Of a DNA stretch of 64,000 nucleotides, positions 8,284 to 13,951 are shown piece by piece. Numbering within the stretch: the first letter of the stretch is position 1; each line of letters begins with the position of its first letter. Both the position numbers and the translations under genes were made by a program. The stretch is from Myxacorys californica WJT36-NPBG1 (GTDB taxonomy: Bacteria > Cyanobacteriota > Cyanobacteriia > Leptolyngbyales > Leptolyngbyaceae), in assembly GCA_019359315.1 (NCBI GenBank), contig JAHHHO010000001.1, positions 124,001 through 188,000 on the forward strand, given 5' to 3'. The notes beneath the pieces were generated by a model. The model ran no database searches. It was not told the DNA's origin and worked only from the letters and a program-made list of their open reading frames with translations.

Positions 8284-8823
8284 ATGCAAAGACTAGCAGA
8301 ATTCTTGAAAAAACTAAGAGTAGGACAGTTCTTAGTAACTGTTTTCGCAGGATTTATCTTGCTATTAAACACGGCTTGTAGCAATGAAACTGCTCAGGGC
8401 GCACGTCCAAACAATCTGCCTGTTCAGATGGGGGGCAACAACAACCCTCACACCAAGAATGGGGACGGATATACAAATTACAAAATGTCTACTGATCCTA
8501 AAGTAAACGGTAAGCCTCAATCGAACTTGCTTTCCGATCGCGTGATTGCAAGTACCTCGATTAAGAGTAACTCTTCAGATTTACTTTATCCGGGAGATCG
8601 AACCTCTGAAGCTAGCAATCCAGATATTGGCTACAGAACCCCGAAAAACTTGTCAGATTTGCCAAACGACAAGCAACCTATGCTTGAGCGCAGCAATCCT
8701 GATGCAAAAATTTTAGAGCGAGTTAATGAAGCCTTCAAAGATGCCTCTACATTTTTGGAGAAGACGGCAGAGGAAGGTTCCGCTCGTCCTGAAGCAAAGG
8801 CAAATCCAGCAATCGGTCAGTAA
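8284..8823 (+). CDS. small predicted lipoprotein, paralogue A
   Basis: 179 residues. The N-terminus (FLKKLRVGQFLVTVFAGF, then LLLNTACSN) is a lipoprotein-type signal with the acylated Cys near residue 32, although Asn instead of Leu at -3 makes the lipobox imperfect. The mature part is polar and disordered-looking, with no recognised domain, and ends in a predicted helix (ERVNEAFKDASTFLEKTAEE). The next gene begins with the same kind of signal, so the two are paralogues probably made from one transcript; the gap is 33 bases. I believe small proteins of this layout are widespread in cyanobacteria without known function. AGGAG at 8272-8276 supports the start. Confidence 0.8.
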   Translation: MQRLAEFLKKLRVGQFLVTVFAGFILLLNTACSNETAQGARPNNLPVQMGGNNNPHTKNGDGYTNYKMSTDPKVNGKPQSNLLSDRVIASTSIKSNSSDLLYPGDRTSEASNPDIGYRTPKNLSDLPNDKQPMLERSNPDAKILERVNEAFKDASTFLEKTAEEGSARPEAKANPAIGQ

Positions 8824-8856
8824 ACCGCTATCACTTGAAATTACACGGAGAATCTT

Positions 8857-9450
8857 ATGAGCAAAATCATGTCTTTCATCAAATCCATTCGTCTGACACA
8901 AGTTCTAACCGCCTTTCTGATGGGCGCGGTGTTACTCTTCAACACAGCTTGTAGCGGTCCAGCACAGGCAAAAATGTCTAATTCGGTCAAAACACCTTCT
9001 GGCGATGGTGGCCCTAATCCTGCTGGGCAAAACCAGCCCTACGAAGGCGGCATGAACAACTTCACCGATGCAGCCCCTTCGGGAAAAGCGGTTGAGGGCA
9101 CCGAGGGCCGGGTACAGCAGCTGATTGACAACGCTGATGCTATGAAGGCAAAGAGCCCGAAAGACTACGCGGAGAAGGTTTGGGACAATGGCCGTGGCCC
9201 AGAACGGGCGCAAGAGGTGGGAGACAAGCTGAAAGGACGCTTTCTTGATGATGGTAAGGATGAACTCAAAGCCACTGGCGATCGCGTTGTCGGAAGCGGT
9301 GAGCGTGCGGTTGAGAAAGCACAGGAATTGGGCGATCGCATCAGCAAGGGTGCTAGCGATGTGAAAGACAATGTAGTGGGCGCAGGAGACACGGTTTCTA
9401 CTAGCTCAAGACGCACTGGCGAAGGCATTAAGGGCAAGGCAGCAGACTAA
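8857..9450 (+). CDS. small predicted lipoprotein, paralogue B
   Basis: 197 residues. The signal IRLTQVLTAFLMGAVLLFNTACSG matches that of the upstream gene, with Cys near residue 31 as the predicted lipid anchor. The mature part starts Pro/Gly-rich. From residue 110 it becomes an amphipathic, charged helix-like region with repeats of the form GDRV-GSGERAVEKAQELGDRI, similar in composition to LEA-like or CsbD-like stress proteins; that likeness is compositional only. GGAG lies 7 bases before ATG 8857, and the 13-mer GGAGAATCTTATG recurs at 10273-10285. An in-frame ATG at 8869 is a weaker choice. A strong terminator lies 147 bases after the stop. Confidence 0.8.
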   Translation: MSKIMSFIKSIRLTQVLTAFLMGAVLLFNTACSGPAQAKMSNSVKTPSGDGGPNPAGQNQPYEGGMNNFTDAAPSGKAVEGTEGRVQQLIDNADAMKAKSPKDYAEKVWDNGRGPERAQEVGDKLKGRFLDDGKDELKATGDRVVGSGERAVEKAQELGDRISKGASDVKDNVVGAGDTVSTSSRRTGEGIKGKAAD

Positions 9451-9946: not shown

Positions 9947-10264
9947 ATGAAAGCTCCCAATTTCCTAAATTTGTTCAAGCGTTTTCGCTCAAAGCAACCT
10001 CAGAATTCTCTAGAATTTGCAACTCTATCCGTAGCAGTATCGCAATACCGCCTGCGGGACGATATCGGCACCGTGTCAAAGACGATTCACCCTCAGCAGC
10101 CGGGTCGCGTGGAGTACCGAGCTACCTGGTGGGATGCCGTCTGCCCCCATGACATCGTATTGCCCGCCGGAACCCAAGTGCGAGTCATCGAAACGATCAA
10201 CATCACTTTGGTAGTTGAGCCAGTTTCGCTTAATGGTTTGACGAATGCTTCAGACGTAGCCTAA
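9947..10264 (+). CDS. NfeD-type OB-fold protein
   Basis: 105 residues without signal peptide or membrane helix. Residues 30-97 (DDIGTVSKTIHPQQPGRVEY, WWDAV, LPAGTQVRVIETINITLVVEP) follow the pattern of the NfeD C-terminal OB domain: G-x-V near the start, P-x-G-R-V, W-x-A, then a G-T-x-V-R-V-x-x strand and L-V-V-E-P. Full NfeD proteins anchor this domain in the membrane next to SPFH/stomatin partners. Here only the soluble domain is present and no SPFH gene lies nearby. The role is therefore open. GGAGG at 9937-9941 fixes the start. Confidence 0.75.
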   Translation: MKAPNFLNLFKRFRSKQPQNSLEFATLSVAVSQYRLRDDIGTVSKTIHPQQPGRVEYRATWWDAVCPHDIVLPAGTQVRVIETINITLVVEPVSLNGLTNASDVA

Positions 10265-10282: not shown

Positions 10283-10570
10283 ATGGAAAACCGCAGGTTC
10301 ACTAGGGGTTCAAATCGAAGGTCTGATTCTACAGGTTGCTTCTGCTCGCAGTGGGTAAAGTCTCGGTGGGCAACGCCTTGCTCTAAGCCGCATCCGCGCG
10401 ATCGCATTTCCATCCAACACTTGCTGCGCCGTCAGCCTAAGATGACTCGTCAGCAGATCGCACGCTCCTTCGGCGCCTCGTCTATCCTCTTCGTTCAGCT
10501 TGCCCAAACCAGCAAAGACGGAGAAGAGGTTCCCAACTCAGATTTTTGTAGTAGGATGATCGAGCCTTAA
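10283..10570 (+). CDS. doubtful 95-aa ORF, possibly decayed
   Basis: GGAG (10273-10276) stands 6 bases before ATG 10283, so initiation is plausible, and a hairpin follows the stop. The protein (MENRRFTRGSNRRSDSTGC) is rich in Arg, Ser, Trp and Cys and unlike a normal soluble protein in its first half. The second half (RQQIARSFGASSILFVQL) looks more natural. The other forward frame reads AGSLGVQIEGLILQVASARS before a stop, which has normal composition. A frameshifted or decayed gene fits both facts. No family recognised. Confidence 0.35.
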   Translation: MENRRFTRGSNRRSDSTGCFCSQWVKSRWATPCSKPHPRDRISIQHLLRRQPKMTRQQIARSFGASSILFVQLAQTSKDGEEVPNSDFCSRMIEP

Positions 10571-10953
10571 ATCCCCTTTTGCCTGCACTAAGCTAGATTG
10601 CCAGCTTGGTGCAGGCTTCATTGTTCTATCGTACTGCTGGAAACAGGGTTCTATCTAAGTTCTAACCCACAAACAAGACTAAGCAAGAGATATAATAATT
10701 ATGTAGATTCTGTGTAGTTCTGTCTACTAACAGATACAAATTTTGAACTTCAAAGTAGAGTTGTATGGAAGATCAAGGACAGGCATTACACCTAGCAGAA
10801 TAATTGCTCAATAATGCTCGAATTGATTCTTGTCAGAGTTTGTGCCAAACGCCAGTCGTAGTCAGATCCCCCCTACTGCCCTGGTTTCATGCCTCAAATT
10901 CAATGAATCGGGAAATGCCTGGGAACGCATAGTCGAGACGAAAAAGGATAGTT
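10571..10953. other. intergenic region, terminator hairpin plus leader
   Basis: 383 bases. The start holds a hairpin (10581-10616). Otherwise there is no coding frame. Near the end CAGGCATT (10780-10787) can pair with AATGCCTG (10914-10921), enclosing a GTTTG-TGC-CAAAC hairpin (10838-10850), a possible leader for the gene at 10954. Confidence 0.45.
10581..10622 (+). terminator. hairpin, probable weak terminator
   Basis: 14-bp stem with one G-T pair between 10581-10594 (GCCTGCACTAAGCT) and 10603-10616, loop of 8. The trailing TTCATT is a poor T-run. Confidence 0.55.
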
Positions 10954-11220
10954 ATGGCGGATAACAAAAACGCTTCTGTGGCAAACCATAAAACTAAGCC
11001 GCATGTTGCATCCAAGGTCAGAAAGCGTCTAAATCTTGACCTCTCTGAAGAAGCATATACGTTACTTCAAGAACTGGCGGAAGCTGAGGATAAGAACATG
11101 GCGGAGGTGCTGCGAACTGGTCTAGCTCTTTACGGCATTGCCCACGAAGAGAAGCTAAAAGGTCGGAGCCTTGGGGTTGTGCAAGACGATCGCGTGATCA
11201 AAGAGATCGTCATTACTTAA
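10954..11220 (+). CDS. ribbon-helix-helix (CopG/Arc-type) protein
   Basis: 88 residues. Residues 25-60 fit the ribbon-helix-helix fold: strand KRLNLDLSEEAYTLL, where alternating residues of the beta-ribbon would enter the DNA major groove, then helix EEAYTLLQELAEAE and helix MAEVLRTGLALYGIAHEE. Such proteins dimerise and often act as antitoxins or autoregulated repressors. No toxin gene follows: the next gene, 240 bases on, encodes a membrane protein. The basic N-terminal 20 residues are polar. The target is unknown. GGATAG lies just before the ATG, a fair ribosome site. Confidence 0.85.
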   Translation: MADNKNASVANHKTKPHVASKVRKRLNLDLSEEAYTLLQELAEAEDKNMAEVLRTGLALYGIAHEEKLKGRSLGVVQDDRVIKEIVIT

Positions 11221-11335
11221 TTTTCAGTACTTACATTTTCAGTATGTTAGACACCTTGTTAGACAATTTCTCAATCTCGTTCAGGCTCATCTTTCTAACT
11301 TCAGCTTTCCAGATCCAACCTTTCTAAATCCACTT

Positions 11336-11451
11336 GTAATTTCAGGACGGTGATTAACTTCAGCGAACCTATCGAGATGGTTAGAGCAATCTAACCCACG
11401 GAGTTGATCCTGTGGAATGAGGAGTCACTTTCCTGAAATTACGGATAGGTT
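11336..11451 (+). promoter_or_regulatory. pseudoknotted leader RNA candidate before 11460
   Basis: Seen directly: P1 is 12 perfect pairs, 11336-11347 with 11431-11442. Inside it is P2, GGTTAGA/TCTAACC (11379-11385 with 11390-11396), closed by a GCAA tetraloop. P3 is CACGGA (11397-11402) with 11408-11414, one bulged T at 11411. A second strand in the P1 loop, AACCTATC (11366-11373), pairs perfectly with GATAGGTT (11444-11451), which lies just 3' of P1 and touches the Shine-Dalgarno GAGG (11452-11455). P1 and the 8-bp helix together form a pseudoknot. This architecture resembles translational riboswitches in which a pseudoknot sets access to the ribosome site. I cannot match it to a known class. 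Confidence 0.6.
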
Positions 11452-11459
11452 GAGGTGTT

Positions 11460-11909
11460 ATGGCTTTGTCCACTGGAGAGTATCTTAATCGGCACAACAT
11501 TGATGAGATGGCAATTCAAATTGCGCCAATGGCGTCAGCTGAGGCTGATCACCATGCCCATTTAGCCCAGTCCTCGGTTCAATCGACTGAGAACTACCTA
11601 AATCGGCGCGGAATTGGAAGAGCGGATTTTGTAGCCGATGAAGCGCGGAGTCGGCTCAGATATGCGTTGAACGATCGCGTGATCGCGCTCTGGTCGTTGA
11701 TTGTAGCGATGGCGATTAGCGCAAAGCGCAACTCCGCAAGAACCGCGCCGTTTTGGCTGATGGCGTTAGTGTCGTTGCCCGCCTTTGGTATCCGAGAAGC
11801 CTATTCAGAACCGATGGAGAATGCGCTTCTGGTGGCGCTAGTGTCTGGTTGTGCAGGACTCTGTTACGTCATCACTCGTAACTTGCTTCCACCCAGCAAA
11901 GGAGACTAG
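11460..11909 (+). CDS. small membrane protein with duplicated N-terminal motif
   Basis: 149 residues, not recognised. The N-terminus carries an 11-residue motif twice: STGEYLNRHNI (4-14) and STENYLNRRGI (42-52), linked by a His-rich polar stretch (EADHHAHLAQ). Three hydrophobic segments follow, around residues 78-92, 100-116 and 122-142 (ALLVALVSGCAGLCYVITRN). The layout suggests a cytoplasmic N-terminal module on a small membrane anchor. GAGG at 11452-11455 lies 4 bases from the ATG, and the leader just before it can form a pseudoknot. The next gene is on the opposite strand. Confidence 0.7.
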   Translation: MALSTGEYLNRHNIDEMAIQIAPMASAEADHHAHLAQSSVQSTENYLNRRGIGRADFVADEARSRLRYALNDRVIALWSLIVAMAISAKRNSARTAPFWLMALVSLPAFGIREAYSEPMENALLVALVSGCAGLCYVITRNLLPPSKGD

Positions 11910-12025
11910 CGCCATTTCAAACATACTCGCTACAGACCCACGGGCACGGCACTGCCATGTCCCGACGCGAACCTATCGCATCCACAGGAATAAAATAGGC
12001 TGGCAATCTAAAGATCATTTCAGCC

Positions 12026-13951
12026 TCATTCCTCGTCTTCATCCTCTGGCTCGTCTTCATCACAGGAATCGGTTGGGTCAATCACAATTAGGTCAATCAC
12101 GATGTCGTTGTGATTGATTTCAATTTGGTGGGCCCATAACCGCTCAAACAACTCTGCGTATTGATTCAACTGAGTGATGCTTTGGTGAATTCTAAAAAGT
12201 AAGTTTCTCACGATGTCTGGCTGAAGGCTTTCCTCATTTAATGCCTCGATGCACTGTTGGTAATCTCTAATTTCGTTCACGGCGCGATCGTAATTTTCGT
12301 CAAAGTTCACAATTCGCGTCCTAATGGCGCGAATCAGATCTGGTTGTGTCTGGCTATCTAGTTTCTCGGCAGTACGCTCTAACCGCCTGAGCAGATACTT
12401 CGATCGTTCTAGTAAATCTTCAAGGCACGACAAGCGATCGTCGAGATCAATTCTTGCTTCTTCGATGGCAACACTGGCTTCGGCCAGTTGACGCAGGGCA
12501 CCTTGAGCGAAGAGAGATTGCTCTTGCGATCGCGCATAGCCTCGATCATCGCCAATCTGAGCATTTGTCCAATCCGTTTCGCTCGTCCAGAGTGCCCCTA
12601 GCAAATTTGCTGATTCTAAATTCGCGTCCTTGAGTCGGGTTCCAGTTAAGTTCGCTGATCGCAGATTCGCCCCTGCTAAGGTAGCTCCACTGAAGTTGCT
12701 GTAAATCAGGTAGGCTCGATTTAAATTTGCGCTCGTTAAATTTGCCGATTCTAGGTTGGCATAGAGCAAGTTTGCTCCTCCTAAACGAGCATGGCTTAAA
12801 TCAGCGCGATGAAGTTGTGCTCCGCTCAGAAAAGCACGGCTGAGATCCGCCTCTTGCAGATTTGCTTCGCTTAGATCAGCGTCATTCAAATTGGTTCGTC
12901 GCAGTAGCGCTTGACTCAAATCGGTATAGGTTAGATTCGCTCCTGCTAGTTTTGCTCCGCCAAAATGCACTTCTCTTAAGGTGGCGCGATACAAATTTGC
13001 CTCGCTTAAATTGGCACTGTTGAGTCTGGCTTTGGTGAGGTTGGCTCGGCTCAAGTTTACGGCGGTTAAATTTGCTCGACTAAGAGATGCATTGGGCAGA
13101 TCAGCACCCCTAAGGTCAGCCCCTGCTAAATCAGCGCCCTCTAGTTTAGCTTGGCTCAAATTGGCTTTATGCAATCTGGCAAAGCTGAGATGTGCGCCGT
13201 GTAGTTCAGCTTGACTGAGGGTTGCAAAACTCAGATCCGAACTTCTGAGCTTGGCGCGACGTAACCCTGCGTTGCTCAAGTCTGCCCTTCTCAGGTTGGC
13301 GCGGCTAAGATACGCACCGTGTAAGGTTGCATTTTGCAAATTCGCATTTTCTAAACAGGCAGATTCTAAGTTCGCCCCCATTAGCAGCGTATTAAATAGA
13401 TCTGCGTCATTCAGGTGCGATCGATTGAGATTTGCTTCGGTTAGACTCGCTCTTTGTAAAACTGCCTTCTTGAGACTCGCCTCTCTCAGAAAGGCGTTTG
13501 CCATCATCGCTAGGCTTAAATCTGCTTCCTCAAGCACAGCGTGGTTTAAACTTGTGAGCCGCATTGAAGCTTCACAAAGCGTCGCCTGACGAAGACTCGC
13601 GTGGTCGAGTTTGACATGATTGAGACTCGCTCTTTGAAGTGAGGCGCGATCGAGGACAGCGTAGTCCATCACCGCATGGTCGAGTTTGGCTTGGTCTAAG
13701 TTGGCGTCGCTCAAATCGGCGTGAGAAAGGCAAGAGCGTTGAAGAGAGGCTTCCTGGAGATTCGCTCGGAGCAATTTTGCATTGGTAAGAGTTGCTCCTT
13801 TGAGATTTGCCCGTTCTAAATTGGCATCGCTCAGATTTGCGTCCTGAAGATCAGTGCCGCTTAAGTCAGCATCAGTGAGATCGACTCCCTGTAAGTTTTG
13901 GCCTCGTAAGGTTTGTCTAGAGTAGTTGCCGCCCGGTTGGAAGTTGCACAT
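12026..13951 (-). CDS. pentapeptide-repeat protein with helical acidic tail
   Basis: 641 residues. From about residue 13 to 455 the sequence is almost unbroken A(D/N)Lxx pentapeptides (for example NLQGVDLTDADLSGTDLQDA), some 85-90 repeats, which fold as a right-handed quadrilateral beta-helix. A few coils deviate, with Val, Met or His at centre positions (residues 95-135). Residues 465-600 change to a charged helical region, probably coiled coil (SCLEDLLERSKYLLRRLERT). The end is strongly acidic (DSCDEDEPEDEDEE). No signal peptide is present, so it is probably cytoplasmic. Pentapeptide-repeat proteins are abundant in cyanobacteria and mostly of unknown role; DNA mimicry as in MfpA/Qnr is a known possibility but those are much shorter. 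Confidence 0.9.
   Translation of the reverse strand: MCNFQPGGNYSRQTLRGQNLQGVDLTDADLSGTDLQDANLSDANLERANLKGATLTNAKLLRANLQEASLQRSCLSHADLSDANLDQAKLDHAVMDYAVLDRASLQRASLNHVKLDHASLRQATLCEASMRLTSLNHAVLEEADLSLAMMANAFLREASLKKAVLQRASLTEANLNRSHLNDADLFNTLLMGANLESACLENANLQNATLHGAYLSRANLRRADLSNAGLRRAKLRSSDLSFATLSQAELHGAHLSFARLHKANLSQAKLEGADLAGADLRGADLPNASLSRANLTAVNLSRANLTKARLNSANLSEANLYRATLREVHFGGAKLAGANLTYTDLSQALLRRTNLNDADLSEANLQEADLSRAFLSGAQLHRADLSHARLGGANLLYANLESANLTSANLNRAYLIYSNFSGATLAGANLRSANLTGTRLKDANLESANLLGALWTSETDWTNAQIGDDRGYARSQEQSLFAQGALRQLAEASVAIEEARIDLDDRLSCLEDLLERSKYLLRRLERTAEKLDSQTQPDLIRAIRTRIVNFDENYDRAVNEIRDYQQCIEALNEESLQPDIVRNLLFRIHQSITQLNQYAELFERLWAHQIEINHNDIVIDLIVIDPTDSCDEDEPEDEDEE

Follow-up and report, generated by a model that had tools for sequence, protein, structure and literature searches.

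A narrowly distributed candidate cis-regulatory RNA between a ribbon-helix-helix gene and a small membrane-protein gene in cyanobacteria

Translational riboswitches of the SAM-V, SAM/SAH and preQ1 classes are described, in the excerpts available of PMC6061858, PMC10516623 and PMC11625349, as carrying pseudoknots at the ribosome-binding site. As far as these excerpts go, the element described here, located in Myxacorys californica WJT36-NPBG1, resembles them in that a pseudoknot over the ribosome-binding site and translational control are proposed, but it differs in its long closing stem (83-92 nt inside), its intercistronic site and the lack of both a known ligand and an Rfam match. A second point of comparison is given by the cyanobacterial orphan cis-regulatory motifs psaA, psbNH, Downstream-peptide and glnA, whose four Rfam accessions stand in a table of PMC2864571 and which, according to the accessible part of that paper, likewise emerged from comparative work on cyanobacteria as candidate cis-acting RNAs. 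Unlike these motifs, the element has another gene context, and the Rfam library containing all four gave no match. For the small ribbon-helix-helix (RHH) protein encoded upstream, the nearest studied protein met was TrcR, which is also a small cyanobacterial RHH protein and which the portion available of PMC10272220 presents as a repressor acting on promoter DNA. The 8-bp TrcR site, i.e. TGTAGTAT or ATACTACA, is absent from the 64-kb window (the whole stretch of DNA analysed), and no title among the literature matches listed concerned the element.

The features of the locus in the window are as follows:

10954..11220, + strand: upstream gene, 88-aa ribbon-helix-helix (RHH, CopG-like) protein (Pfam RHH_1, E 0.0033, under the gathering score; PHROG repressor family, E 1.2e-4)
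11336..11347, + strand: P1, 5' strand GUAAUUUCAGGA, pairing with 11431-11442 (12 bp, perfect)
11344..11355, + strand: conserved core AGGACGGUGAUU, unchanged in six of seven loci, with a single C-to-U change in the seventh
11349..11355, + strand: lower part of P2, 5' strand GGUGAUU, partner 11423-11429; pairs partly kept in other loci
11357..11364, + strand: proposed anti-Shine-Dalgarno strand ACUUCAGC; in the nested fold, 11358-11362 pairs with 11418-11422
11366..11373, + strand: first-described pseudoknot strand AACCUAUC, perfect with 11444-11451 in the window, 4 bp in the sister locus G001
11379..11396, + strand: apical hairpin of 7 bp with a GCAA loop, not kept as such at other loci
11397..11414, + strand: apical bulged hairpin of 6 bp, absent from the G001 fold
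11418..11422, + strand: upper part of P2, 3' strand UGAGG, five bases identical to 11451-11455 at the ribosome-binding site
11423..11429, + strand: lower part of P2, 3' strand AGUCACU, from the minimum free energy fold; pairs partly kept elsewhere
11431..11442, + strand: P1, 3' strand UCCUGAAAUUAC, pairing with 11336-11347
11444..11451, + strand: partner of the first-described pseudoknot strand, GAUAGGUU, pairing with 11366-11373
11449..11456, + strand: ribosome-binding region GUUGAGGU, coverable by the anti-Shine-Dalgarno strand (stack energy -13.5 kcal/mol; 2-3% of shuffles as strong)
11460..11909, + strand: downstream gene, 149-aa small membrane protein, presumed target

The element lies inside the 239-nt gap between the two genes, with the Shine-Dalgarno GAGG starting at 11452 and the ATG of the membrane-protein gene at 11460. 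All parts reported in the initial annotation, i.e. the 12-bp helix, two hairpins, an 8-bp helix and the Shine-Dalgarno sequence, are present where it had placed them. The region 11320-11470 has a minimum free energy of -48.3 kcal/mol (z -3.28), which none of 200 dinucleotide shuffles equalled in stability, and its fold includes an additional helix that had escaped listing, namely 11349-11355/11423-11429 together with 11358-11362/11418-11422 (P2). That the arrangement is far beyond chance, as had been claimed, is correct for P1, as shuffling the intergenic region 1000 times gave a Watson-Crick helix with 12 or more bp only once, but not for the 8-bp pseudoknot, which is a roughly 1% event: a Watson-Crick match of 8 bp or longer between the P1 interior and the tail was seen in 8 of 1000 shuffles. 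Similarly, the apical hairpins exist in the window but are not conserved as such, since the folds of G001, a sister species that is placed in the same genus as the window and is, by its sequence, probably Myxacorys almedinensis A, and of the other genus with the element (g6) differ: the first hairpin could form with 5 bp and one compensatory change in G001, the minimum free energy fold of which does not use it, and the folds of g6 contain different apical hairpins. The earlier view that no class fits was borne out, as the Rfam 15 covariance models gave no match at or above gathering on the window, and lax filters on 11200-11560 returned just two sub-threshold matches, both on the opposite strand. 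BLAST found one copy of the element in its own genome.

Comparison of the window with G001 gave dN 0.06 and dS 0.81 for the RHH gene and dN 0.32 and dS 1.11 (over 135 codons) for the membrane-protein gene; judged by this dN/dS, the 149-aa frame looks protein-coding. Pfam and PHROG gave no match to the membrane protein and NCBIfam none above cut-off, and a search of the genome contigs collection with this protein found no relative. Using a query profile of five rows, one of which (G268) had itself been located via its RHH gene, homologues were detected in 9 of 388 genomes of the class, and each of the nine is closely preceded, on its own strand, by an RHH match. In the second genus, where the membrane proteins are shorter, only synteny led to them, the profile having missed them in G006, G029 and G033, and G041 is likewise outside the nine profile matches. 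Upstream of the RHH gene, the window also contains an open reading frame with an NfeD C-terminal domain (9947-10264), a tandem pair of DUF6658 genes (8284-9450) and, in the intergenic space directly ahead of it, a terminator-like hairpin of 14 pairs (10581-10616); in L008, an open reading frame that by eye resembles the NfeD one (295-663) likewise precedes the RHH gene. Behind a second RHH paralogue of the window's own genome (L074, contig C46) lies a small open frame in which a hydrophobic stretch is visible by eye.

Related elements were found in seven cyanobacterial genomes from two genera of one family, five of the seven sequences belonging to one genus. Among the 17 RHH loci listed, which come from 14 of the 42 genomes of the family, seven keep the core AGGAYGGUGAUU at the junction, i.e. 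the window, G001 and five loci of g6 (L014, L015, L016, L017 and L018), of which L015 agrees with the record of Leptolyngbya sp. Prado105 (L046) and L016 with that of Pseudanabaenaceae cyanobacterium LEGE 13415 (L044). The gene order at all seven is RHH stop, element and membrane-protein start. Between the window and G001, the leader is identical in 98 of 130 columns, which is above the identity at third codon positions of both the RHH gene (66%) and the membrane-protein gene (52%). A covariance model built from two sequences (R1) and run over the 42 family genomes recovered only its two source sequences; one more match, at the same position but on the reverse strand (E 4.3e-5), was attributed to the near-palindromic stem. 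The other five loci were reached by synteny through the RHH gene. A model from all seven loci (R2), run over the 388 class genomes with strict filters, which lose weak matches, returned the same seven at E 2.4e-26 or better, and 23 further matches (E 0.0056 to 0.29) were taken as noise. With the filters off, R2 gave 19 weak matches on 24 loci, the best of which (E 0.13) lay outside the gap. In the genome contigs collection, the core pattern occurred in 24 stretches, three of them cyanobacterial and at the expected junction; the remaining 21 were judged by eye to be chance. None of the eight stretches with the core pattern in viral contigs was judged to contain the element, no match was found in plasmids and phages, and the element was not seen by eye in the gaps of the homologous RHH/membrane pairs of G023, G268, G227 and G113.

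The distance from the RHH stop to P1 in the seven loci is 20, 20, 21, 25, 79, 115 and 141 nt, i.e. 20-25 nt in four of them, where space for a promoter of its own is scarce, and in a simple scan of 10570-12030 the stretch 11221-11336 showed nothing promoter-like. Both observations suggest an intercistronic element, which is probably part of a common RHH/membrane-protein transcript, co-transcription of the two genes being predicted. The location before a small membrane-protein gene agrees with what had been described as a leader, but the element follows closely behind the RHH gene and is probably not a stand-alone leader.

The structure was tested on 20 stem pairs with equal-length ungapped arms in a hand alignment of the seven sequences. 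In total, 84.3% of the stem cells pair, compared with 33.1-54.1% after shifting the partner by 1-3 columns and a mean of 80.2% in shuffles, none of 500 of which reached 84.3%. Four pairs are changed on both sides, including U-A vs C-G between the genera (reached by 44 of 500 shuffles), as are seven cells (4 of 500), and the covariation score of 0.236 was reached by 1 of 500 shuffles; thus, some of the compensatory changes expected of homologous elements in the initial annotation are present. The number of further pair types in the stem is not unusual (reached by 280 of 500 shuffles), and six stem pairs depart by pair loss alone. Within one sequence, P1 forms 10-12 of 12 pairs, and arms combined across genera form 8-10 (mean 9.0), which is a real but modest excess. 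Two stem pairs are G-U in five of the seven sequences and G-C in the other two; this retention of G-U pairs favours an RNA over a DNA palindrome.

As to the pairing with the tail, the first-described pseudoknot forms without mismatch over 8 bp in the window, where it is the strongest interior-to-tail helix (-14.3 kcal/mol), but it did not hold as a conserved pairing: four base pairs are left in G001, including one with changes on both sides, and no equivalent was found among the seven strongest interior-to-tail helices of each g6 locus. L014, L016 and L018 have a 4-bp helix nearby, to a different part of the tail. It was set aside as the conserved pseudoknot, the strand 11357-11364 having counterparts in all seven loci. 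In the window, the helix of this strand with 11449-11456 is nearly as strong (-13.5 kcal/mol), and its counterparts start 2-5 nt after the G of GAUU, with energies of -8.1 to -13.5 kcal/mol and with sequences such as UUACC/GGUAA in G001 and UCUCU, CCUCU or UCCUCU against GGAGG(A) in g6. Among the interior-to-tail helices it ranks first in three loci, second in three and fourth in one, and the register varies by locus. Shuffles were as strong in 2-3% of cases in the window and in 9-78% at the other six loci, and 13-base segments of the same loop in 8-44% (17% in the window). Individual significance of the Shine-Dalgarno pairing is confined to the window; what chiefly supports it is its constant position.

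With pseudoknots left out of the ensemble, a six-base stretch that overlaps the anti-Shine-Dalgarno strand (11354-11359 in the window) pairs inside the element and not with the tail, with a mean probability of 0.49-1.00 in all seven sequences, internal pairing being expected for most bases of any folded RNA. With both pseudoknot strands held free and the pseudoknot stack added, the pseudoknotted totals, which include no penalty for the pseudoknot itself, are lower than the nested fold by 2.2-7.8 kcal/mol. Such a penalty amounts to several kcal/mol, so that the two states would be of similar energy, which is consistent with a switch and no proof of one.

Taken together, the element is very probably a functional cis-acting RNA, and we consider it somewhat probable that it is an intercistronic cis-regulatory RNA acting as a translational switch by partner exchange of one strand. 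The RHH and membrane-protein genes would be co-transcribed, and the RNA between them would set translation of the membrane protein separately from that of the RHH protein. P1 (12 bp) and P2 would form one long stem, and the strand directly after the core (11357-11364) could choose between an internal strand and the ribosome-binding region as alternative partners. In the ON state, it would pair with its internal partner (11418-11422 in the window), leaving P2 closed and the ribosome-binding site free; in the OFF state, it would pair with 11449-11456, forming a pseudoknot with P1 and hiding the ribosome-binding site. A ligand, protein or condition favouring either partner would then switch translation. 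Of the earlier proposal of a translational riboswitch or other cis-acting RNA, the structured cis-acting RNA stands, with some compensatory changes and a pairing that could hide the ribosome-binding site, but the element is probably intercistronic rather than a stand-alone leader. The element is thus best described as a new, narrowly distributed candidate cis-regulatory RNA, for which 'riboswitch' is a possible label. It adds a structured cis-acting RNA that has no Rfam match, with a two-state model open to mutation tests, and brings into view a functionally unassigned gene pair, in which the gene of an RHH regulator precedes that of a small membrane protein.

The alternative that survives best, and which we regard as conceivable rather than probable, is a static intercistronic stem that would, without any switch, insulate the second gene, fix the protein ratio or guard the mRNA from decay. 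The nested stem is indeed the best-supported part of the structure, the Shine-Dalgarno pairing is not individually significant in six of the seven loci, and other, unrelated hairpins are found in the gaps after homologous RHH genes elsewhere. Against a static stem speak the strand able to pair with the ribosome-binding region, whose place is nearly constant across the seven loci, and the conservation of the 5' core beyond what pairing needs.

A sub-case of the strand-exchange switch is a new riboswitch class sensing a metabolite or an ion, in which the core would be the ligand pocket and the ligand would select P2 or the Shine-Dalgarno pseudoknot. We consider this reading doubtful, and a small-molecule ligand for the element is, taken by itself, rather unlikely. 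The core is unchanged in six of the seven loci, with one change in the seventh, whereas the apical part varies, and the two states of similar energy and the missing Rfam match would also fit; on the other hand, the target gene, having no Pfam, PHROG or NCBIfam match, gives no clue to a ligand, the distribution is very narrow, and conservation of the core within the genus with five loci may reflect plain relatedness. Only with reserve can one speculate on a lineage-restricted new riboswitch class in the RHH/membrane-protein operon, in which a pyrimidine-rich strand would pick either an internal copy of the ribosome-binding site or the real one; if true, a new riboswitch class would control an uncharacterised cyanobacterial membrane protein. 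If an effector exists, its identity would tell what the RHH/membrane-protein pair senses.

Transcriptional attenuation, in which P1 followed by U-rich sequence would stop transcription before the membrane-protein gene, is improbable. Although the 3' strand of P1 runs into U5 to U7 in L014, L015, L016 and L018, the U run is absent in the window, G001 and L017, the stem encloses 83-92 nt, and a scan of 11221-11460 found no terminator-like site. A DNA element, whether an operator bound by the RHH protein or a mobile inverted repeat, is very improbable: the inverted repeat does adjoin the gene of a DNA-binding (RHH) protein, but G-U pairs are retained in the stem, the arms are about 83 nt apart, the element is single-copy in its own genome, related copies were found at RHH/membrane junctions only, and plasmids and phages gave no match. 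Operator, mobile element and terminator were set aside after consideration.

Apart from the seven loci on which the candidate switch is based, a second RHH/membrane pair in G040 (L065, 1774-1902; L128, 1366-1494) is possibly a relative of the element with the same layout and was left out of all counts. Its gap has almost no sequence similarity to the element and contains a 14-bp perfect P1-like helix enclosing 62 nt (0 of 1000 shuffles), as well as two equally strong interior-to-tail helices, one of which (CUUUACU with AGUGAGG, -9.8 kcal/mol) covers the ribosome-binding site, the other being UAGCUU/AAGCUA. R2 matched this locus where the element would be expected, with 10.6 bits (E 0.48), and a search with its leader found itself alone at E 1.6e-54, others being at 0.0077 or worse. 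In G268, which belongs to another family, the gap of the homologous pair (L111, around 1808-1845) contains a 10-bp hairpin, UCUCCUCCUG/CAGGAGGAGA, the 5' arm of which could, by eye, also pair with a downstream CAGGAGA before the start codon, i.e. a similar logic in unrelated sequence.
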